A stretch of DNA of 52,878 nt, taken from positions 1 through 52,878 of the forward strand of contig JAKEFB010000133.1 in assembly GCA_022616275.1 (NCBI GenBank). Reading direction: 5' to 3'. The first letter of the stretch is position 1. Each line of letters starts with the position of its first letter. The notes under the pieces were generated by a model. The model was not told the origin of the DNA and searched no databases. It saw nothing but the letters and a program-made list of their open reading frames with translations. The position numbers and the translations under genes are program-made. Below are positions 4,908 to 50,038 of the stretch, in pieces. This stretch comes from Chloroflexota bacterium. GTDB taxonomy: Bacteria > Chloroflexota > Anaerolineae > Promineifilales > Promineifilaceae.

Positions 4908-4937
4908 ATTATCCGCCAAACCCAGGCAAGTCGGCAA
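4908..4937 (-). promoter_or_regulatory. Promoter of the kinase/STAND gene
   Basis: On the minus strand, TTGCCG (4937-4932), an 18-bp spacer and GATAAT (4913-4908) precede ATG 4898 with a 9-nt gap. The -35 box lies inside the first octamers of the tandem array at 4926-4989, so array length or sequence could influence this promoter. Confidence 0.45.
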
Positions 4938-5010
4938 GTTTGCGAGTTGGCAAGTTTGCGAGTCGGCAAGTTTGCGGGTTTGCGAGCCACTTGCCACCTG
5001 CCACCTGCCT
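4926..5010. repeat. Tandem octamer/heptamer array between divergent kinase and smc genes
   Basis: Eight consecutive octamers run from 4926 to 4989: GCAAGTCG, GCAAGTTT, GCGAGTTG, GCAAGTTT, GCGAGTCG, GCAAGTTT, GCGGGTTT, GCGAGCCA. Three heptamers follow (4990-5010): CTTGCCA, CCTGCCA, CCTGCCT. The array ends 2 nt before the smc -35 box. Confidence 0.85.
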
Positions 5011-5012
5011 AT

Positions 5013-5041
5013 TTGCATACTCGCCCCCTTGTCACTATACT
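5013..5041 (+). promoter_or_regulatory. Promoter of smc
   Basis: TTGCAT (5013-5018), an exact 17-bp spacer and TATACT (5036-5041). The -10 box ends 11 nt before ATG 5053, predicting a leader of about 4-5 nt or none. Confidence 0.65.
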
Positions 5042-11293: not shown

Positions 11294-11310
11294 CGTTTAC
11301 TCCTTACAAA

Positions 11311-11359
11311 AGCTGTCAGCTATCAGCTATTAGCCATCAGCTTTCAGCTCTCAGCAATC
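11311..11359. repeat. Seven tandem heptamers between rpsF and rpsR
   Basis: Seven exact 7-nt units: AGCTGTC, AGCTATC, AGCTATT, AGCCATC, AGCTTTC, AGCTCTC, AGCAATC. AGC is invariant and the last four positions vary. The array sits 6 nt upstream of the rpsR Shine-Dalgarno sequence, within the transcribed operon. Confidence 0.9.
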
Positions 11360-11918: not shown

Positions 11919-13136
11919 ATGCTACGACCCATTGACGAACAAGTGGCCATACTCATGCAGGGCACGGAGTATGGCGACGAGACCCTGCGCCAGAATATGG
12001 AAGAAGCGCTGCGCCAGCGGTTGGCCGAGGGCCGCCCGCTGCGCGTCTACTGCGGCTTCGACCCCCGCACCAGCGACCTGCATCTAGGCCATACTGTACC
12101 CCTTTACAAACTGCGCCAGTTCCAGGAGTTGGGCCACCAGGTCGTCTTTCTGGTTGGCACGTTTACCAGCCTCATTGGCGACCCCAGCGACCAGGACCAA
12201 CTCCGGCCGCAACTGACGCTGGAGCAAACACTGGCCAACGCCGCCACTTACGCCGAGCAAGCTTTTGCCGTTCTGGACCGGAAAAAGACGACCATTCGCT
12301 TCAACCACGCCTGGCTGCAGGAGCTGACGTTGGAGGAGTTCATCCACGTGGCCAGCCACTTCACTGTCCAGCAATTTCTGACCCGCGAGAATTTCCGCGA
12401 CCGGTTCGCGGCCGGCGACGCCATCTACCTGCACGAGTTCTTTTACGCTCTGTTGCAAGGGTACGACGCCGTGGCCCTAGAGACAGATGTCCAGGTGGGC
12501 GGTACCGACCAGTTGTTTAACATCGTCACGGCCGGCCGCAAGCTACAAAGCGCCCAGGGCCAGAAACCACAAATCGCCATCATTCACGGCATCCTGCCTG
12601 GCACTGACGGTGTGATTCGCATGTCTAAAAGCCGGGGCAACCACATTCCCATTCGCGCCACGCCAGAGGATATGTACGGCAAGGTGATGAGCCTGCCAGA
12701 CCAGGTCATGCCTCAATTCTTCCGGCTGGTAACCCGCTACGAGCCGGCGGCCATCGCCGCCATCGTCCAGGACCTGGAGAGCGGCCGCCGCCACCCCCGC
12801 GATGTCAAGATGGAGCTGGCCCGCGAAATTGTCAGCATGTTCCATGGCCTGGACGGAGCGGCGGCCGGAGAAGCGCACTTCCGGCAGGTTTTCCAGCAAA
12901 AAGAAGCGCCGGACGAGATGGTAGAGAGGACGCTGGTCGAGCCGGCCGGCCTGGTGGACCTCATTTACGAAGCCGGGTTGGCCTCTAGCAAAAGCCAGGT
13001 CCGCCGGTTAATTCAGCAAGGTGGCGTACGCCTGAACGGACACAAGGTCGAAGACGTCCACCTGGTGCTCGAACCCAATCACGAGCAAATTATCCAGGTG
13101 GGGAAGCGCCACTTTTTACGCATCAAAGGCAAATAA
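11919..13136 (+). CDS. tyrS: Tyrosyl-tRNA synthetase
   Basis: 405 residues, class I aminoacyl-tRNA synthetase that charges tRNA-Tyr. It has the HIGH-type motif HLGH (55-58), the KMSKS-type motif RMSKS (234-238), the tyrosine-site stretch ETDVQVGGTDQLFNI, and a C-terminal S4 RNA-binding domain (SKSQVRRLIQQGGVRLNG, about 335-400). Its motif spacing resembles the TyrRZ-type (shorter catalytic insert) subfamily. The ATG is fixed by the -10 box 8 nt upstream. It is transcribed away from rpsF. Confidence 0.95.
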   Translation: MLRPIDEQVAILMQGTEYGDETLRQNMEEALRQRLAEGRPLRVYCGFDPRTSDLHLGHTVPLYKLRQFQELGHQVVFLVGTFTSLIGDPSDQDQLRPQLTLEQTLANAATYAEQAFAVLDRKKTTIRFNHAWLQELTLEEFIHVASHFTVQQFLTRENFRDRFAAGDAIYLHEFFYALLQGYDAVALETDVQVGGTDQLFNIVTAGRKLQSAQGQKPQIAIIHGILPGTDGVIRMSKSRGNHIPIRATPEDMYGKVMSLPDQVMPQFFRLVTRYEPAAIAAIVQDLESGRRHPRDVKMELAREIVSMFHGLDGAAAGEAHFRQVFQQKEAPDEMVERTLVEPAGLVDLIYEAGLASSKSQVRRLIQQGGVRLNGHKVEDVHLVLEPNHEQIIQVGKRHFLRIKGK

Positions 13137-13157: not shown

Positions 13158-13194
13158 GCAAGGCTGCAAGTGGCAAGTAGGCAAGTAGCAAGAT
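13158..13194. repeat. Tandem 7/8-mer array upstream of sppA
   Basis: GCAAGGCT, GCAAGTG, GCAAGTAG, GCAAGTA, GCAAGAT: five units of 8, 7, 8, 7 and 7 nt sharing GCAAG. It lies between the tyrS stop and the sppA Shine-Dalgarno (GAGGAG). Confidence 0.75.
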
Positions 13195-18506: not shown

Positions 18507-18536
18507 CTCTGCCTCTACCTCTTGCTCTCGCTCAAC
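18507..18536. repeat. CTCTNN hexamer array upstream of radA
   Basis: Five hexamers: CTCTGC, CTCTAC, CTCTTG, CTCTCG, CTCAAC. Read on the minus strand it is a purine-rich leader directly before the radA start and includes GAGG sequences that may serve as ribosome binding sites. Confidence 0.55.
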
Positions 18537-32740: not shown

Positions 32741-32829
32741 ATTAAGTAATTGGTAATTAAGTAATTGGTTATTGGTTATTGATTCGGCCAGTGCAAATTA
32801 CTCACTTACTCAATTACCCAATTACCAAG
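32741..32829. repeat. AT-rich 7/8-mer tandem array forming an imperfect inverted repeat
   Basis: The left half (32741-32782) reads ATTAAGTA, ATTGGTA, ATTAAGTA, ATTGGTT, ATTGGTT, ATTGATT. The right half (32796-32829) is roughly its reverse complement (TTACTCA, ATTACCC, ATTACCA motifs). The 113-bp spacer between the DUF4012 and SH3b genes is almost entirely this element and is much more AT-rich than its surroundings. Confidence 0.8.
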
Positions 32830-33872: not shown

Positions 33873-33893
33873 CCAACGCTGAGGGCTGAGAGC
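33873..33893. repeat. Short heptamer array upstream of htpG
   Basis: Three GCTGAnn-type heptamers in a row (GCTGAGG, GCTGAGA, GCTGACA) about 30 bp before the htpG start codon, upstream of its GAGGAGG Shine-Dalgarno. Confidence 0.5.
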
Positions 33894-33921
33894 TGACAAC
33901 GACGCACGAGGAGGATAAAGA

Positions 33922-40545: not shown

Positions 40546-42233
40546 AGCAGAAATATCTCGGCTTTCTTGCGCTCGGCAGCGCATTCCTTGTCCTCATCCT
40601 GGCGGCGCGGGCCAGCGTAACGGCCGATGGGACCTTGCCGGTCATACCGGGAACGACCGAACGCGTTAGCCTGGGTCCTGGCGGGGTAGAAGGGGACAAC
40701 GAGAGCTATTTTCCAGATATCTCGGCCGACGGCCGTTACGTCGCCTTCGAATCCCTGGCCAGCAACTTCGCCCCCAATGATTGGAATGAGGCCTTCGACA
40801 TCTTCGTCTACGACCGGCAGGCCGGCGAACTGGAGGTTATCACCCAGGGAACTCCGCTAGGTGATAGCGGGTACCCTGCCCTTTCGGCCGACGGCCGCTT
40901 CGTCGCCTTCTACTCGTGGGCCGGCAATCTGGTGGCCAACGACACGAACTACTACTGCGGTTACCTGGGTAATGAAAACTGCGCCGATATCTTTGTCTAC
41001 GACCGGCAGGCAGAGACGATGGAGATGGTCAGCGTCAGTTCGGCTGGGGTGCAGGGCAATAACGATAGTTTTACGCCGGCTATCTCGGCCGACGGCCGTT
41101 TCGTCGCTTTTGCCTCGGGGGCTAACAACCTGGTGGGCGGCGACTGGAACTATCAGTATGACATCTTCGTCCATGACCGGCAGGCCGGGACGACGGAACG
41201 GGTCAGTGTGGACTCCAACGGCCAGGAGGCCAACAATAGCAGTTTCCTCCCTTCCCTCTCGGCCGACGGCCGCTACGTCGCCTTTCACTCCTCGGCCAGC
41301 AACCTGGTCCCCGGCGACACCAATGGCGACGACGTCTTCGTCCACGACCGGCAGACCGGCCTGACCGAGCGGGCCAGCGTCAACTCGGCCGGCCAGCAGG
41401 CCAACCACAACAGCGGCTACGCCGCCATCTCGGCCGGCGGCCGCTACGTCGTCTTCGCTTCCTATGCCAGCAACCTGGTGACGCCCAACGACACCAACTG
41501 GGTGGCCGACTTCTTTCTCCGCGACCGCTGGATAGGCGTTACCGAGAAGGTGAGCGTGGACTCCAACGGCCAGGGCGGCAACGACAACAGCGGCGGCGGC
41601 GACGTCTCGGCCGACGGCCGCTACGTCGTCTTCTCCTCTGGGGCCAGCAACCTGGTGGCCGGCGATACCAGCTTTACGGTGGACGTTTTCCGCCACGACC
41701 GGCTGACCGGGGCGACCGAACCGTTCAGCCTCAGTTGGGACGGCCAACAACTGGGGAATAATGCCAGCGGCAGCCCGGTCCTGACGCCGGACGGCCGCGA
41801 AGTCGTCTTCTACTCCCAGGCCGACAACCTGGTTATCACCGACACGAGCGGCATTTCCGACATCTTTATCCGCACCCGGCCGCCCATCAGCCTGACGCTC
41901 AACTACCCCTCCGGCGCGCCGGGCAGCTTCTTTACCCTCACGGGTGGCAACTTCCCGTTCAGCGCCACCGCCACCATCGCCGTCAACGGCGTGCCCCTCG
42001 GCAGCCTGCCCACCGACGGCAGCGGCGCTTTCACCGCCCTGTTGAACACGGCTGGGGCCACCCCCGGCCTCTACCGGGTGGCGGCCACGGTCCTGCCCTC
42101 GCGGGAGATCGCCACCTTGGCCCTGGACCCCAACGGCGTCGTCCACCCCCAGGAGGGCAATGGCCCTATTTTCCTTGTCCCGCCGTTTACCTTTGTCTAC
42201 CTGCCGGCCATTTTTTCGCCGGCGCCGCCATAA
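40542..42233 (+). CDS. Secreted seven-bladed TolB/WD40-like propeller protein with YLP tail
   Basis: 563 residues. Signal peptide (about 1-25, YLGFLALGSAFLVLILAARAS), then seven copies of a blade motif of the form [SA]DGR[YF]V[AV]F followed by [SA]N[LF]V and D[IVF]F..DR. This is a PD40/TolB-like beta-propeller of seven blades (about 40-445). An Ig-like IPT/TIG-type module follows (about 450-545: LTLNYPSGAPGSFFTLTGGNF, FSATATIAVNGVPLGS). The protein ends TFVYLPAIFSPAPP, a tail like that of the 19338 protease. Start ATG 40542 sits at the signal peptide; an in-frame extension to 40446 is rejected. Extracellular; partner unknown. The repeated blade coding makes the DNA internally repetitive. Confidence 0.75.
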   Translation: MKQKYLGFLALGSAFLVLILAARASVTADGTLPVIPGTTERVSLGPGGVEGDNESYFPDISADGRYVAFESLASNFAPNDWNEAFDIFVYDRQAGELEVITQGTPLGDSGYPALSADGRFVAFYSWAGNLVANDTNYYCGYLGNENCADIFVYDRQAETMEMVSVSSAGVQGNNDSFTPAISADGRFVAFASGANNLVGGDWNYQYDIFVHDRQAGTTERVSVDSNGQEANNSSFLPSLSADGRYVAFHSSASNLVPGDTNGDDVFVHDRQTGLTERASVNSAGQQANHNSGYAAISAGGRYVVFASYASNLVTPNDTNWVADFFLRDRWIGVTEKVSVDSNGQGGNDNSGGGDVSADGRYVVFSSGASNLVAGDTSFTVDVFRHDRLTGATEPFSLSWDGQQLGNNASGSPVLTPDGREVVFYSQADNLVITDTSGISDIFIRTRPPISLTLNYPSGAPGSFFTLTGGNFPFSATATIAVNGVPLGSLPTDGSGAFTALLNTAGATPGLYRVAATVLPSREIATLALDPNGVVHPQEGNGPIFLVPPFTFVYLPAIFSPAPP

Positions 42234-42286: not shown

Positions 42287-43663
42287 CGGTGACAACGCCG
42301 TCGTCAACACCCCCCGGCCGATCCGTTCGGCCGGGCTCAAATCGTCGCTGTTTTCAATGACGACCACGACCAGGTAGCGCGGGGCGCCGGCCGGGGCCAG
42401 GCCCAGGTACCAGGCGTTGGTGCTGCCGCCAGGGCCGGAGAGGACGAGGGTGGCGTGCTCGACGAGGCCGTTAAACTGGGGGAGGGCCTGGAGGATGGCC
42501 TGGGCCGCCGCCCCGGAAACGGCCGTGCTCTCCCGCTGCCCGGTCAGGAGGGCCTGCCATTCGCCTGATTCGTCCTCGACGGCGGCCGCCAGTTCGGGGG
42601 TGGGCAGCCGGCCTTCGTTGGCCAGGGCAGCCCAGGCCAGCCCGATTTGCAGCGGCGAGACGGTCAGGTTCTCCTGGCCGATAGCCGCCAGCAGCGGGTC
42701 GTCAATGGCCTGGTTTTCGGCCGACTCCGTGGCCATGGGCAGCTCCGGCGGGACCAGTAAGCCAAAGGCGTTTAATATCTCCAGCAGGCCGGCCGGGCCC
42801 CATTGCCTGGCCAGGGAGAGCATGGGGGCCGGGCAGCGCTGGCGCAAGACCTCGGCCCAGGTGGCCGGCTCAGCCGGCGGTCCGGCGCAGCGAATGGTCG
42901 TACCGTTGACGACGACCGGTGTCGTCGCCCGCTCGACCGGCTGGTCCAGTAAAACGTGGCCCTGGTCCAGCGCCGCGGCCAGGAGAAAGGGCTGCAAGGT
43001 CAGGCCCGGCTGGTACTGGCCCTGGGTGACGCGGTTCAGCAGCGGCGCGTCTTCGTCGGCCGCCAACTGGTCAAACTGCTCGTCCAGCAAGTTGGGATCG
43101 TAGCCGGGGTGGCTGCTCATGGCCCGGATGGCGGCGTCGGGCAGGCTCAGCAGCAGGACCGCCCCCTGCTGCTGGCCGAGCAGGGCCTCGGCTGCGCGCT
43201 GCCAGCGGACGTCCAGCGTCAGGCGCACGTCCTGGCCGACCTGGGGCCGGTGAAGGGTCTGGTAGCGCCAGAAATCGCTCCAGAAGTCGCCGGTCGTGCC
43301 GCGCAGGGCGTCGTCGAAGCCTTCCTCGACGCCGGCCGTGCCGTGGCGAAAGGAGTAGTAACCAACGGCCGGGCCAGCGCCGGCGATGGGGTAGGAGCGG
43401 CGCAAGTTGTCCGGCGGCCCCATCGTTTCGGCCAGGACGGCATCGTTGGTGTCCAGGATGCGGCCGCGCCGGATGCGCAGCTCGGCCTCGACCAGCCGGG
43501 GGTTGTCTTCACGGGCGAGGATGACCGGCCGGCGGGCCACGCCCCAAAAGACCAGCCCCAGGGCCACGGCAAAAAAGGCGAGCAAAATGACCAGGTTTAG
43601 CCGCTCAAGGCGGGCCCGGCGCTGGTCGGATTCGGAATGGGACGCGGATTCACGCAGATTCAT
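42281..43663 (-). CDS. Class B penicillin-binding-protein homologue lacking all catalytic motifs (pseudo-transpeptidase)
   Basis: 460 residues. One N-terminal transmembrane helix (about 22-44) and a short pedestal (VEAELRIRRGRILDTNDAVLAET, GAGPAVGYYSFRHGTAGVEEGFD) are typical of FtsI/PBP2-type class B PBPs. A transpeptidase-fold domain follows. The three active-site motifs are changed: SxxK becomes LxxQ (Leu221, Gln224 in YQPGLTLQP), SxN becomes RxP (Arg276, Pro278), and KTG becomes LSG (Leu408-Gly410). Surrounding fold residues are kept (NAWYLGLAP, QENLTVSPLQIGLAWAALAN). It should not bind penicillin or crosslink peptidoglycan, and probably serves as a structural or allosteric partner of the adjacent SEDS protein. 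Start ATG 43663. Confidence 0.8.
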   Translation of the reverse strand: MNLRESASHSESDQRRARLERLNLVILLAFFAVALGLVFWGVARRPVILAREDNPRLVEAELRIRRGRILDTNDAVLAETMGPPDNLRRSYPIAGAGPAVGYYSFRHGTAGVEEGFDDALRGTTGDFWSDFWRYQTLHRPQVGQDVRLTLDVRWQRAAEALLGQQQGAVLLLSLPDAAIRAMSSHPGYDPNLLDEQFDQLAADEDAPLLNRVTQGQYQPGLTLQPFLLAAALDQGHVLLDQPVERATTPVVVNGTTIRCAGPPAEPATWAEVLRQRCPAPMLSLARQWGPAGLLEILNAFGLLVPPELPMATESAENQAIDDPLLAAIGQENLTVSPLQIGLAWAALANEGRLPTPELAAAVEDESGEWQALLTGQRESTAVSGAAAQAILQALPQFNGLVEHATLVLSGPGGSTNAWYLGLAPAGAPRYLVVVVIENSDDLSPAERIGRGVLTTALSPE

Positions 43664-43693
43664 GTGGTTATGTGGTTGTGTAGTTATGCGGTA
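43662..43693. repeat. Tandem octamer array at the pseudo-PBP start
   Basis: ATGTGGTT, ATGTGGTT, GTGTAGTT, ATGCGGTA: four octamers overlapping the start codon and immediate upstream region of the pseudo-PBP gene (minus strand). Confidence 0.6.
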
Positions 43694-45944: not shown

Positions 45945-45956
45945 ACATACTCCGTA

Positions 45957-46060
45957 AGCTATAAGCTGTTAGCTATAAGCTATTAGCTGTAAGCTATAAA
46001 CTATAAGCTAACTGTCTCCTGTAACCTTTAACCTGCTCCCTGCGACTTGCCCCCTCTTAC
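45957..46060. repeat. Long heptamer array (two unit types, about 15 units) between mtnP and the bactofilin gene
   Basis: Type 1 (45957-46012): AGCTATA, AGCTGTT, AGCTATA, AGCTATT, AGCTGTA, AGCTATA, AACTATA, AGCTAAC. Type 2 follows without a break in the 7-nt phase (46012-46060): CTGTCTC, CTGTAAC, CTTTAAC, CTGCTCC, CTGCGAC, TTGCCCC, CTCTTAC. The array fills the whole 112-bp spacer and overlaps the bactofilin-gene stop codon. Confidence 0.9.
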
Positions 46061-48036
46061 TTCTCTACGTCTTCTCCGCGGCGGCGGCGGCGGTCGAGGT
46101 AAACGGTCAGGTCCTGCAGCTTTTGTTTGGTCTGGGCCAGCTCTGTCTCTAGGGCCTGAATGCGTTGCCCGGCTATTTTCTTAAAGGACTCCAACTGCTG
46201 GGTCTGTTTGGCGCCTGTTTCTCGCAGCCGCCCCAGCTCAATTTCCCGCTCGACCAGCATGGCCTGGATGTCGGCCAGGCGCTTGCTTTGCCCTTCCATC
46301 TCCTGGTGCAGGAACTCGACCTCGGCCTCGTAGGCCTCTAACTGCAACTGGCGTTGGCGCAGGGATTCGCGTAATTCCTCTACCTGGCCGCTGCTGCGGC
46401 CCTGGGCCTGGACGGTGTGGCTCTCCAGCTCCTTGACCTTCTGATCAGCGGTGTACAACAGGTCGGTCATCCGGCCGACGCTGTCTTTCCATTTTTCTAC
46501 CTGGGACTGCTTTTCTTCCAGCTCGGTCTGGAGCCGGTTGACGAAGGTGCTCTGATCCAGGACGACCTTGCGCAACTCTTCGACTTCGGCCCGGGTAGAT
46601 TCCAGGGAAGCTTTATTCCACAAGAACTGGTCGTAATATTCCTGGGCCTCGGTTTCCATGCGGCGCAGCCGGTCCTCCAACTGGCTAATTTTGGCCCGGG
46701 CCGTGGCCAGCTCGGCCAGGGCGTGGCCGTATTCGGCCGGTTGGGACTCAAATTTGAGGCGGAGCGCGGCCACTTCGTCCTGGAGATTGTCGTTTTCCTG
46801 GCGCGCCGCCTGCAGCTCGGCCGTACTCTTCTGCCAGGATTGCTGGAAACCTTCTTGCTCGGCGTGGGCCTCGGCCAGCTCTCGCTGAGTCCTTTCCCAT
46901 TCCCGCTGGACCTTGTCTCGCTGGACGCGCAGCATCTCGACCACCCGGCTGTTTTCGGCCAGTTGGAGGTTGACAGTTTTTAATTCTGCTTCCAACTGCT
47001 TGACCCGGGCCTCGGTCACCTCGGCCAGCTCCTGCCAGCGGACCAGGGATTCCTCCTGCTCGGCCGTGTGCTGCAGGCTCCCCTGGAAGGCGCTTTCCAG
47101 GTTTTCGACCCGCCCCACCAGGCCGTCAGCCCGCTCCGTCTCGCCTTTCAGTTGTTTTTCTAACTGGCGGCGGTGATGTTCCAGGTCAGCCAGCTTTAAA
47201 TTTTGTTTTTCAAAGGCGACCTGCATGTCGTCCAGGGCGGCGGTCCGCTCGTCCAGGGAGCGGCGCAAAGTGGCCAACTCTTCAGTCTGGCTTTGCACCT
47301 GGCCGTCGCGCATCTGGGCTGTTTCCTGGGACTGAGCCAGTCGCTCACGGAGGAGGAGTAGCTCACTACGCGAAGCGACGACCTCTTGCCGCAAGGCGGC
47401 CGCTTCGGAGACGGCTTCGCCGGCAATTTCGGCAATGCGAGCCTCAAAGGCCCGCTCCATTTCGGCCCGGGCCAGCAGTGCCGCCGCTGCTTCGGCTTGC
47501 AGACGGCGCATCACGGCCAGGCGGCGGTTGGCTGGCCCCACGTCGCCGTCGCCAGACCAGTCCAGGTCAGGCTGGCCGGCCAACAGGCGGTCATCCCGTA
47601 AGTCAGGCGGTAAGAGGTGGTGGCCGGCCGAGGGCAAGTCGTCCACGGCCATCTTGCCAGTGCGCAGGGCCAGGTAAGAAGCTTCGTCCAGGGAGCCAAT
47701 CCAGCCATGCACCTTGCCGGTCTCAGAGACCTGGAACGACGTGGCGTAAACGTCGCCCCAGACCTGCCCCTGGCCTTCGACGGCCACTTCGCGAGCGACC
47801 ACGAAGCCGTAGACCAGGCCGGAAACGATGACTTTGGGGGCCATGACTTCCCCAGCCACGGCTGCCCCGGCGGCAACGTGGACCGGCTGCTCGGACTGGA
47901 TGTCGCCGACGTGGTAGTCGTGGACCTCCAGCCAGTTGCGGCCGTGGCGCAAGGCAAAACCCACGCGCTGGAGAAGTCCTGGCTCGTTGTCTCGCTTACC
48001 GGCCGGGGCCAGCGCCGATGGTTTGTTTGTTTGCAT
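46057..48036 (-). CDS. Bactofilin domain fused to a long coiled coil
   Basis: 659 residues. About residues 35-140 form a bactofilin-like polymer-forming beta-helix: VHDYHVGDIQSEQPVHVAAG, AAVAGEVMAPKVIVSGLVYG, VAREVAVEGQGQVWGDVYATSFQVSETGKVHGWI. Residues 180-650 are an almost uninterrupted Gln/Glu/Leu/Arg-rich coiled coil (QSQTEELATLRRSLDERTAAL, QAMLVEREIELGRLRETG) with a basic tail (LDRRRRRGEDVEK). There is no membrane segment. Typical bactofilins are 100-200 residues without such an arm. It could be a cytoskeletal filament with protruding tethers, for example for wall machinery or cell shape. It starts 7 nt after a -10 box. Confidence 0.75.
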   Translation of the reverse strand: MQTNKPSALAPAGKRDNEPGLLQRVGFALRHGRNWLEVHDYHVGDIQSEQPVHVAAGAAVAGEVMAPKVIVSGLVYGFVVAREVAVEGQGQVWGDVYATSFQVSETGKVHGWIGSLDEASYLALRTGKMAVDDLPSAGHHLLPPDLRDDRLLAGQPDLDWSGDGDVGPANRRLAVMRRLQAEAAAALLARAEMERAFEARIAEIAGEAVSEAAALRQEVVASRSELLLLRERLAQSQETAQMRDGQVQSQTEELATLRRSLDERTAALDDMQVAFEKQNLKLADLEHHRRQLEKQLKGETERADGLVGRVENLESAFQGSLQHTAEQEESLVRWQELAEVTEARVKQLEAELKTVNLQLAENSRVVEMLRVQRDKVQREWERTQRELAEAHAEQEGFQQSWQKSTAELQAARQENDNLQDEVAALRLKFESQPAEYGHALAELATARAKISQLEDRLRRMETEAQEYYDQFLWNKASLESTRAEVEELRKVVLDQSTFVNRLQTELEEKQSQVEKWKDSVGRMTDLLYTADQKVKELESHTVQAQGRSSGQVEELRESLRQRQLQLEAYEAEVEFLHQEMEGQSKRLADIQAMLVEREIELGRLRETGAKQTQQLESFKKIAGQRIQALETELAQTKQKLQDLTVYLDRRRRRGEDVEK

Positions 48037-48804: not shown

Positions 48805-48879
48805 GTGTCAAGTGCTTCCGTGTCAAGTGTCAGGTAATCTACTTCACTTGACACCTGGCACCTGGCACTTGACACCTAT
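48805..48879. repeat. Heptamer arrays in inverted orientation between convergent genes
   Basis: The left side has GTGTCAA, GTGCTTCC, GTGTCAA, GTGTCAGG. The right side (48845-48879) has CACTTGA, CACCTGG, CACCTGG, CACTTGA, CACCTAT. GTGTCAAGTG at 48805-48814 and 48820-48829 pairs with CACTTGACAC at 48866-48875 and 48845-48854, giving nested 10-bp stems. Placed between two convergent stop codons, it could serve as a bidirectional terminator-like hairpin. Confidence 0.85.
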
Positions 48880-49985: not shown

Positions 49986-50003
49986 CTGGTCTACTCCTGT
50001 AAG

Positions 50004-50038
50004 AGCTATCAGCTTTTAGCTTTCAGCTATCAGCGTTT
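50004..50038. repeat. Five tandem heptamers upstream of the 369-residue hypothetical gene
   Basis: AGCTATC, AGCTTTT, AGCTTTC, AGCTATC, AGCGTTT. It is the same AGCTnnn class as the arrays at 11311-11359 and 45957-46012, in different genomic contexts. Confidence 0.9.

Follow-up and report, generated by a model that had tools for sequence, protein, structure and literature searches.

Degenerate heptameric and octameric arrays in the intergenic spacers of a Chloroflexota genome share a lexicon of words and a G-first hairpin polarity

The window, by which we mean the whole stretch of 52,878 nt that was analysed, takes up all of contig 32 in the 309-contig assembly (8.53 Mb) of a Chloroflexota bacterium. 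Its spacers carry short tandem arrays, given here in the order of their coordinates, the focal one taking two lines.

4925..5013, unstranded: octamers GGCAAGTT/TGCGAGTC and, after them, C-rich units (ACTTGCC/ACCTGCC) in head-to-head arrangement; flanked by genes for a protein kinase (minus strand) and SMC (plus strand)
11309..11359, plus strand: single heptamer array of AGCT[N][T/A][C/T] units
13158..13194, plus strand: short, weak GCAAGT array with mixed 7/8 spacing
18507..18536, minus strand: short CTCTGCC-like array, best period 6
32741..32829, unstranded: RGTAATT and GGTTATT units, a loop and AATTACTC/AATTACCC units, head-to-head; predicted hairpin
33873..33900, plus strand: short heptamer array, GCTGAGR, adjoining a gene start
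43662..43693, minus strand: octamer array, ATGTGGTT
45954..46012, plus strand: focal array, part 1, eight heptamers of the AGCTATA type, lying upstream of a gene (minus strand) for a PNP/UDP phosphorylase
46013..46060, minus strand: focal array, part 2, in-phase C-rich heptamers of another word, which reads GGTTACA/GGGAGCA on the minus strand
48805..48879, unstranded: GTGTCAAG, a loop and CACTTGACACCT, head-to-head, between convergent genes; predicted hairpin
50003..50038, plus strand: single heptamer array of AGCT[A/T]T[C/T] units

Each of the ten spacer stretches singled out by an earlier note on this DNA is tandemly periodic (p 0.003 or less each, against 1000 mononucleotide shuffles and with the best lag taken among 5–12). 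Our array detector requires 11 matches in 14 at a lag of 6, 7 or 8. Of the 26 window spacers, 9 hold arrays by this rule, which passes over 13158–13194, a stretch that mixes lags 7 and 8. That note had spoken of strict 7-nt arrays, each spacer with its own unit. Strictness fails for half of the stretches, the best lag being 7 in five (11311, 33873, 45957, 48805 and 50004), 8 in four (4926, 13158, 32741 and 43662) and 6 in one (18507). Nor are the units private: AGCT-type units are common to 11311, 45957 and 50004, GCAAGT-type units to 4926 and 13158, and the focal word TAAGCTATAAGCT occurs 31 times in the genome against 0 for its read-backwards control. The reported change of unit without loss of phase at 46012 does stand, with lag-7 matches at 37 of 49 positions in 45957–46012 and 24 of 41 in 46013–46060, counts reached by 0 of 1000 shuffles. 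The focal spacer had no phage match, and no known RNA family was found in the window at gathering score. Three 177-nt tandem repeats lie within a coding region at 41160–41670.

To set the window in its genome, 61 stretches were sampled (990 kb of the 8.53 Mb), comprising 112 kb of spacers of at most 1.5 kb each and 842 kb of coding sequence. Genes and spacers were delimited by a purpose-built hexamer gene caller, and some gene starts are misplaced because the spacers derive from it. When a segment is counted if 12 or more of 14 positions match at a lag, the sampled spacers hold 137 at lag 7 and 59 at lag 8, against averages of 0.2 and 0.4 over five dinucleotide shuffles; lags 14 and 16 give 61 and 25 (shuffles 0.6 and 0.2), and lags 5, 10 and 11 give 1, 4 and 2. 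Coding sequence yielded 24 segments at lag 7 and 28 at lag 8. The excess of 7–8 nt periods over shuffled sequence is present in spacers across the sample, in which the detector finds 200 arrays in 157 of the 553 spacers. These occupy 9.8% of the bases of same-strand spacers and 10.1% of convergent ones, but 3.1% of divergent ones. As for the claim that arrays hug gene starts and stops, it is the stops that bear it out: 58 of 119 same-strand arrays start no more than 10 nt from the upstream stop codon (about 26 if placed uniformly), whereas 19 of the 119 end within 10 nt of a start. At L103 and L111 (upstream of a phosphorylase gene) the array overlaps the end of the upstream gene and appears to supply its stop codon, as one also seems to do in G066 (C13, near 109082 of the joined stretch).

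The spacers draw on a common lexicon of about a dozen words with periods of 7, 8 or 6. The commonest exact doublets in this genome are AATCTCC, which is GAGATTG after rotation and complementing (17 spacers), AATCTCT (14) and AACCAAT (7), followed by ACTGAGG, ACACCTG and AAAATCC (6 each) and the octamer AATTACCC (5). AATCTCC and ACGCATC both recur in the samples g2, g23 and 'others', and the octamer in g23, g5 and 'others'. Period-6 arrays of a like style (CTAGAG, CTCTCC, CAATCG), some of them inverted, occur at L070, L051, L047:3895, L055:7702 and window 18507–18536. No other member of the genus was among the 60 relatives drawn, and a search of genome contigs with the SMC protein found no relative; the focal word is present in 3 of the 60. 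Within the family, GAGATTRGAGATTR is found in 34 of 53 genomes at 0 to 1303 copies, a count whose read-backwards control is confounded because GAGATTA read backwards is a rotation of itself; two genomes of one genus differ 87-fold (15 copies in G060, 1303 in G062). RGTAATTRRGTAATT is found in 19 of the 53 at 0 to 1084 copies, with read-backwards controls of 0 or 1. Across the phylum, GAGATTGGAGATTGGAGATTG with at most one mismatch occurs in 20 of 400 genomes, this one included (control 3). An exact scan of named genomes gave at least 113 stretches; among the 80 listed, 19 lie outside Chloroflexota by title, and most arrays at the non-Chloroflexota loci among the matches listed are direct and form no hairpin.

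Some arrays also share a loop module, GGCRACC-AAA-GGTYGC, which lies near 56 places in this genome when up to two mismatches are allowed (9 for the control). Three different words have it in their arrays, and it occurs in 8 of the 53 family genomes. It stands mid-array at L041:8791-8880, L052:4879-4955, L330-L356 and L042:883-942, and at the last of these it occurs as three copies spaced 22 nt apart. Around it, the two sides of ACACAGAG and GCGAGT arrays are direct, not inverted. Other dispersed repeats were seen: palindromes without 7–8 nt periodicity in the G000 sample spacers (AACCTCC[C/G]GGAGGTT in up to 15 spacers, together with GCATCCTCAGATGC and GCACGAAGCGTGCC), and a family of repeats of about 75 nt, with dozens of occurrences in G001 on either strand, some of them in tandem (L329:11554-11663 and 12691-12804).

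The words are degenerate consensuses that combine fixed and free positions, among them GAGATT[GA], AGCT[AGT][TA][CAT], A[AG]GTG[TG]C and [GA]GTAATT[GA]. With free positions defined as those whose commonest base falls under 80%, a choice made on the same units that were tested, departure from consensus is found in 3–10% of units at core positions and in 26–58% at free ones. Adjacent units are no likelier to agree at free positions than units in shuffled order in 9 of 10 words (p 0.14–0.84), the exception being GGTTATT (p 0.02). In 6 of 10 words, units that share an array resemble each other more than units from separate arrays do; the other 4 words, GAGATTR included, show no such excess. Since neighbours show no extra likeness over reordered units in 9 of the 10 words, simple slippage is disfavoured as the whole story.

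Many arrays are paired head-to-head, and the pairs have a direction. By a loose rule, whose control rate is 24% (111 of 460), an inverted partner was called close to 87 of 158 arrays. In array hairpins the G-rich arm comes first on whichever strand is read, which holds for 45 of 45 hairpins with periodic arms in this genome, 25 of 25 in g2, 13 of 13 in g5, 25 of 33 in g23 (seven opposite, one tie) and 7 of 8 in the others, or 115 of 124 overall (8 opposite, 1 tie); CGTAATC-type words account for 5 of the 7 exceptions in g23. An explicit-word count gave 36 to 0, over 10 of the 16 words searched, and adjacent complementary arrays were G-first in 30 of 30 cases here and 35 of 36 in relatives. At the named Chloroflexota loci listed, 65 cases are G-first, 10 opposite and one tied, for whole loci with coding sequence included. 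Non-periodic hairpins divide more evenly here (84 G-first to 67 opposite, 11 ties), in g2 (34 to 25) and in the others (13 to 13). They lean G-first in g23 (47 to 11) and g5 (38 to 19), perhaps as decayed arrays that fall below the cut. Head-to-head arrays of mixed words were too few to give an order (4 vs 2).

The two arms of a hairpin share a word without sharing its free letters. Linker bases agree across arms in 26 of 64 paired positions vs 66 of 131 unpaired ones in this genome, and in 29 of 52 vs 102 of 179 in g2. With linker bases unmatched in this way, copying from arm to arm is rejected as the main source of the arrays. A weak contribution of such copying is allowed, because variant units agree somewhat more often in the paired register than in the control (3 of 38 vs 3 of 127; 9 of 48 vs 21 of 211).

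Comparison of related species shows how quickly the arrays turn over. Over 57.9 kb aligned between the sister species G001 and G023, the latter from the same family as the window's genome, identity is 93.1% in coding sequence, 89.8% in spacers outside arrays and 68.7% in arrays, where 313 gap columns stand beside 386 aligned ones. Arrays lie in 10 of the 42 gene gaps, and one lacks a G023 counterpart. Three hairpins carry a like change of word on both arms (GAGATTG to GAGACTG; AAGATTR vs GAGATTR; GTAGAG vs a longer unit). One G023 array has six extra in-phase units, four of them of a new word, CGTGATT, and one G023 loop holds an insertion that bears a hairpin of another word and is flanked by near-identical 8-nt repeats. 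At G001 C54 62724-63127 (L380), the loop of a GTGATGC hairpin is inverted relative to its G023 orthologue, as if flipped between the arms. Among 222 comparisons of spacers with conserved neighbours, drawn from eight genome pairs with genomes reused, 168 had no array, 31 had one in a single species and 23 in both. Where both species had arrays, the word was the same in 11, partly shared in 6 and different in 6; one of the 11 (G066/G065 at 47581) is an identical non-repeat. Flanks of the 31 one-species arrays seldom align to the exact base. An AACCATT hairpin nearly unchanged between G066 and G025, even at its free positions, counts against fast turnover. In orthologous spacers, then, unit number differs and most arrays are not conserved base for base, this hairpin being largely the exception. 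The earlier note had proposed an active process such as slippage or templated addition. An active process is supported, because arrays are gained, lost or altered in the orthologous spacers of related species; of the two candidates, slippage is disfavoured and templated addition would be the better fit.

The reading that we favour, tentatively, is that the arrays arise by addition of G-rich words to DNA 3' ends at breaks, followed by joining. At a break, a degenerate G-rich word would be added repeatedly to the 3' end; where both ends are extended and then joined, the product would be a head-to-head hairpin, and where one end is extended, a single array. The hairpin may itself be prone to breakage, such that the same site would be rewritten with the words current in the lineage. 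The rarity of arrays in genes and promoters would then reflect selection, and the loop module could, speculatively, be a copied fragment. Such writing would account for the fixed polarity, for one word per hairpin with independent free bases, for the in-phase change of unit, for single arrays and for rewriting at one site. It is favoured by units that act as separate draws, their order being uninformative in 9 of 10 words, by the three hairpins altered alike on both arms between G001 and G023, by the low identity of arrays in that pair (68.7%, coding 93.1%) and by the parallel of vertebrate interstitial telomeric repeats. Against it stand the greater likeness of units within arrays in 6 of 10 words, the 9 of 124 hairpins off polarity, the 10 opposite cases at named Chloroflexota loci, the G-first lean of non-periodic hairpins in g23 and g5, the somewhat better agreement of variant units in the paired register and the near-constancy of the AACCATT hairpin. 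Two candidates for the machinery were rejected. RVT_1 is present in 37 of 53 family genomes with no association with arrays (G061 has 851 word matches and no RVT_1, while G016 and G031 have RVT_1 and no word matches), and classical end joining by Ku meets the difficulty that Ku is found in 1 of the 53.

Ordinary heptameric simple sequence repeats, in which slippage duplicates units, template switching or inversion makes hairpins and mutation degrades both, are a somewhat improbable source, albeit one with points in its favour. The period of 7–8 nt could be a polymerase footprint, a hypothesis cited in PMC4692102. Long perfect runs exist, for example about 15 exact GAGATTG units on contig 90 of G023. 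Slippage also agrees with the variation of unit number between orthologues, with the six added in-phase units of G023 (four of a new word) and with the likeness of units within arrays in 6 of 10 words. However, slippage followed by mutation predicts a gradient of likeness between neighbours and no restriction of variation to certain positions; the gradient is absent in 9 of 10 words and variation is confined to certain positions of the word, such that the process fits poorly alone. It does not explain why identical words recur across the genome and in other genera, nor why hairpin polarity is fixed.

Selection for hairpins at mRNA 3' ends, for termination, end protection or translational insulation as in a proposal for REPs, would keep pairing while sequence turns over, and we consider this unlikely as the origin of the arrays. 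It draws on predicted hairpins that are strong in most of the 41 spacers listed, on arrays that begin at stop codons and are depleted in divergent spacers, on the joint changes of both arms between G001 and G023 and on sites that retain arrays though their words change. Nevertheless, T-runs adjoin 4 of 45 array hairpins where 1.7 are expected, which is too few for intrinsic terminators, and we reject that role. Mismatches in the coding-strand RNA show no clear preference for wobble pairs (29 G-U vs 22 A-C), linker bases are unmatched across arms, and tandem words and a polarity that is G-first on both strands are left unexplained. Under the favoured model of addition at breaks, arm pairing would be a by-product of the same word being written on both sides, and the pairing may nonetheless be of use at mRNA ends.

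Mobile hairpins of the REP or MITE kind, or gene conversion, by which arrays would be copied from site to site and shuffled, appear more unlikely still. Copying would spread words and erase the likeness of neighbours, and it would suit bursts in single lineages (15 vs 1303 matches in two genomes of one genus), the loop module common to several arrays and the G023 insertion between near-identical 8-nt repeats. Yet the arrays have no fixed length or ends, the module occurs in arrays of three different words, and the other matches of the G023 insert in 451 kb of g2 are, among those listed, to the word hairpin only. Similar outer flanks, in the 12 examples listed, are nearly all array words or the loop module, but one shared flank of 23 nt is not an array word. 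The idea that arrays are the ends of some longer dispersed element found no support, the control for it having sampled overlapping windows and being unusable. Finally, uptake-signal-like sequences multiplied by biased DNA uptake are very improbable, for although DNA uptake sequences are arranged as inverted pairs where genes end and hundreds of copies and inverted pairs are seen here, the words are a dozen and degenerate, not one, stand in tandem at 7–8 nt and differ greatly in abundance between congeners.

The kind of repeat described here, the heptameric intergenic repeat, is already known, and the variant is new. The closest likeness is to the GGGNATC repeats of Xanthomonas and the GGGGA(C/T)T repeats of Nostoc (Rehm et al., 2015; PMC4692102). 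As described there, the Xanthomonas repeats have 7-nt units with fixed and free positions (GGGANTN), are intergenic, sit close to the 3' end of the gene before them and are rare between divergent genes. Their sequence differs between close species, and their G-rich heptamers form convergent pairs at that same location (70 and 75 cases), the same polarity in another phylum. That account gives Xanthomonas and Nostoc one G-quadruplex-type word per genome, in contrast to the dozen or so words with periods 7 and 8, mostly free of GGG tracts and replaced on both arms, that we find in a different phylum. The leading words AATCTCC, AATCTCT, AACCAAT, ACTGAGG and ACACCTG contain neither GGG nor CCC, and none is a quadruplex-type G-tract unit.

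The likeness to cyanobacterial STRR repeats that the earlier note had drawn is sound in kind: both have tandem 7-nt units between genes that can form hairpins, by prediction here (PMC2670836). It is a likeness of kind across phyla. The TAACTGA repeats of Beggiatoaceae are likewise heptameric intergenic direct repeats of patchy distribution over phyla, but are described as one word, mostly just upstream of start codons, with hardly any inverted pairs (one) (PMC4679880). REPs resemble the arrays in being palindromic, in inverted pairs and downstream of coding sequence in same-direction and convergent gaps, and differ in their units of 20–40 bp, GTAG or CGTC tags and links to RAYTs (PMC3733652). 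No fixed REP/REPIN palindrome of 20–40 bp was found among the arrays, in which unit number and word vary.

Telomere fusion yields head-to-head arrays. The arrays share this trait, with the G-rich strand running toward the junction from both sides in 115 of 124 hairpins and by 36 to 0 in explicit words. The interstitial telomeric sequences of vertebrates are internal tandem short words inserted at breaks, as shown by orthologous empty loci, and the insertions include fragments copied from telomerase RNA (PMC8537989). Break insertion, described for those sequences, is proposed for the arrays here; the vertebrate sequences have one unit and a known telomerase RNA, whereas the writer here is a proposed one. 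A broader reading, which would probably not hold, is that Chloroflexota, and perhaps Xanthomonas and cyanobacteria, possess a DNA-end writing activity that adds degenerate G-rich words of 7–8 nt to 3' ends left by breaks, before joining. In that doubtful reading, bacteria would have their own counterpart of the interstitial repeats that telomerase makes, in a lexicon that differs between species.

The origin of heptameric intergenic repeats in unrelated bacteria has been cited as polymerase slippage, as a hypothesis (PMC4692102). Fixed polarity, the absence of neighbour likeness and the change of both arms to the same word are measurable, are not predicted by slippage and constrain any model. 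Together, the word swaps and the polarity hint at a way of writing DNA other than copying slips. If a writing enzyme exists, these bacteria would make new sequence at breaks, of which we found no description in the literature searched. If it does not, the arrays are still fast-changing spacer DNA, and would matter when spacers are aligned and terminators predicted in these bacteria.
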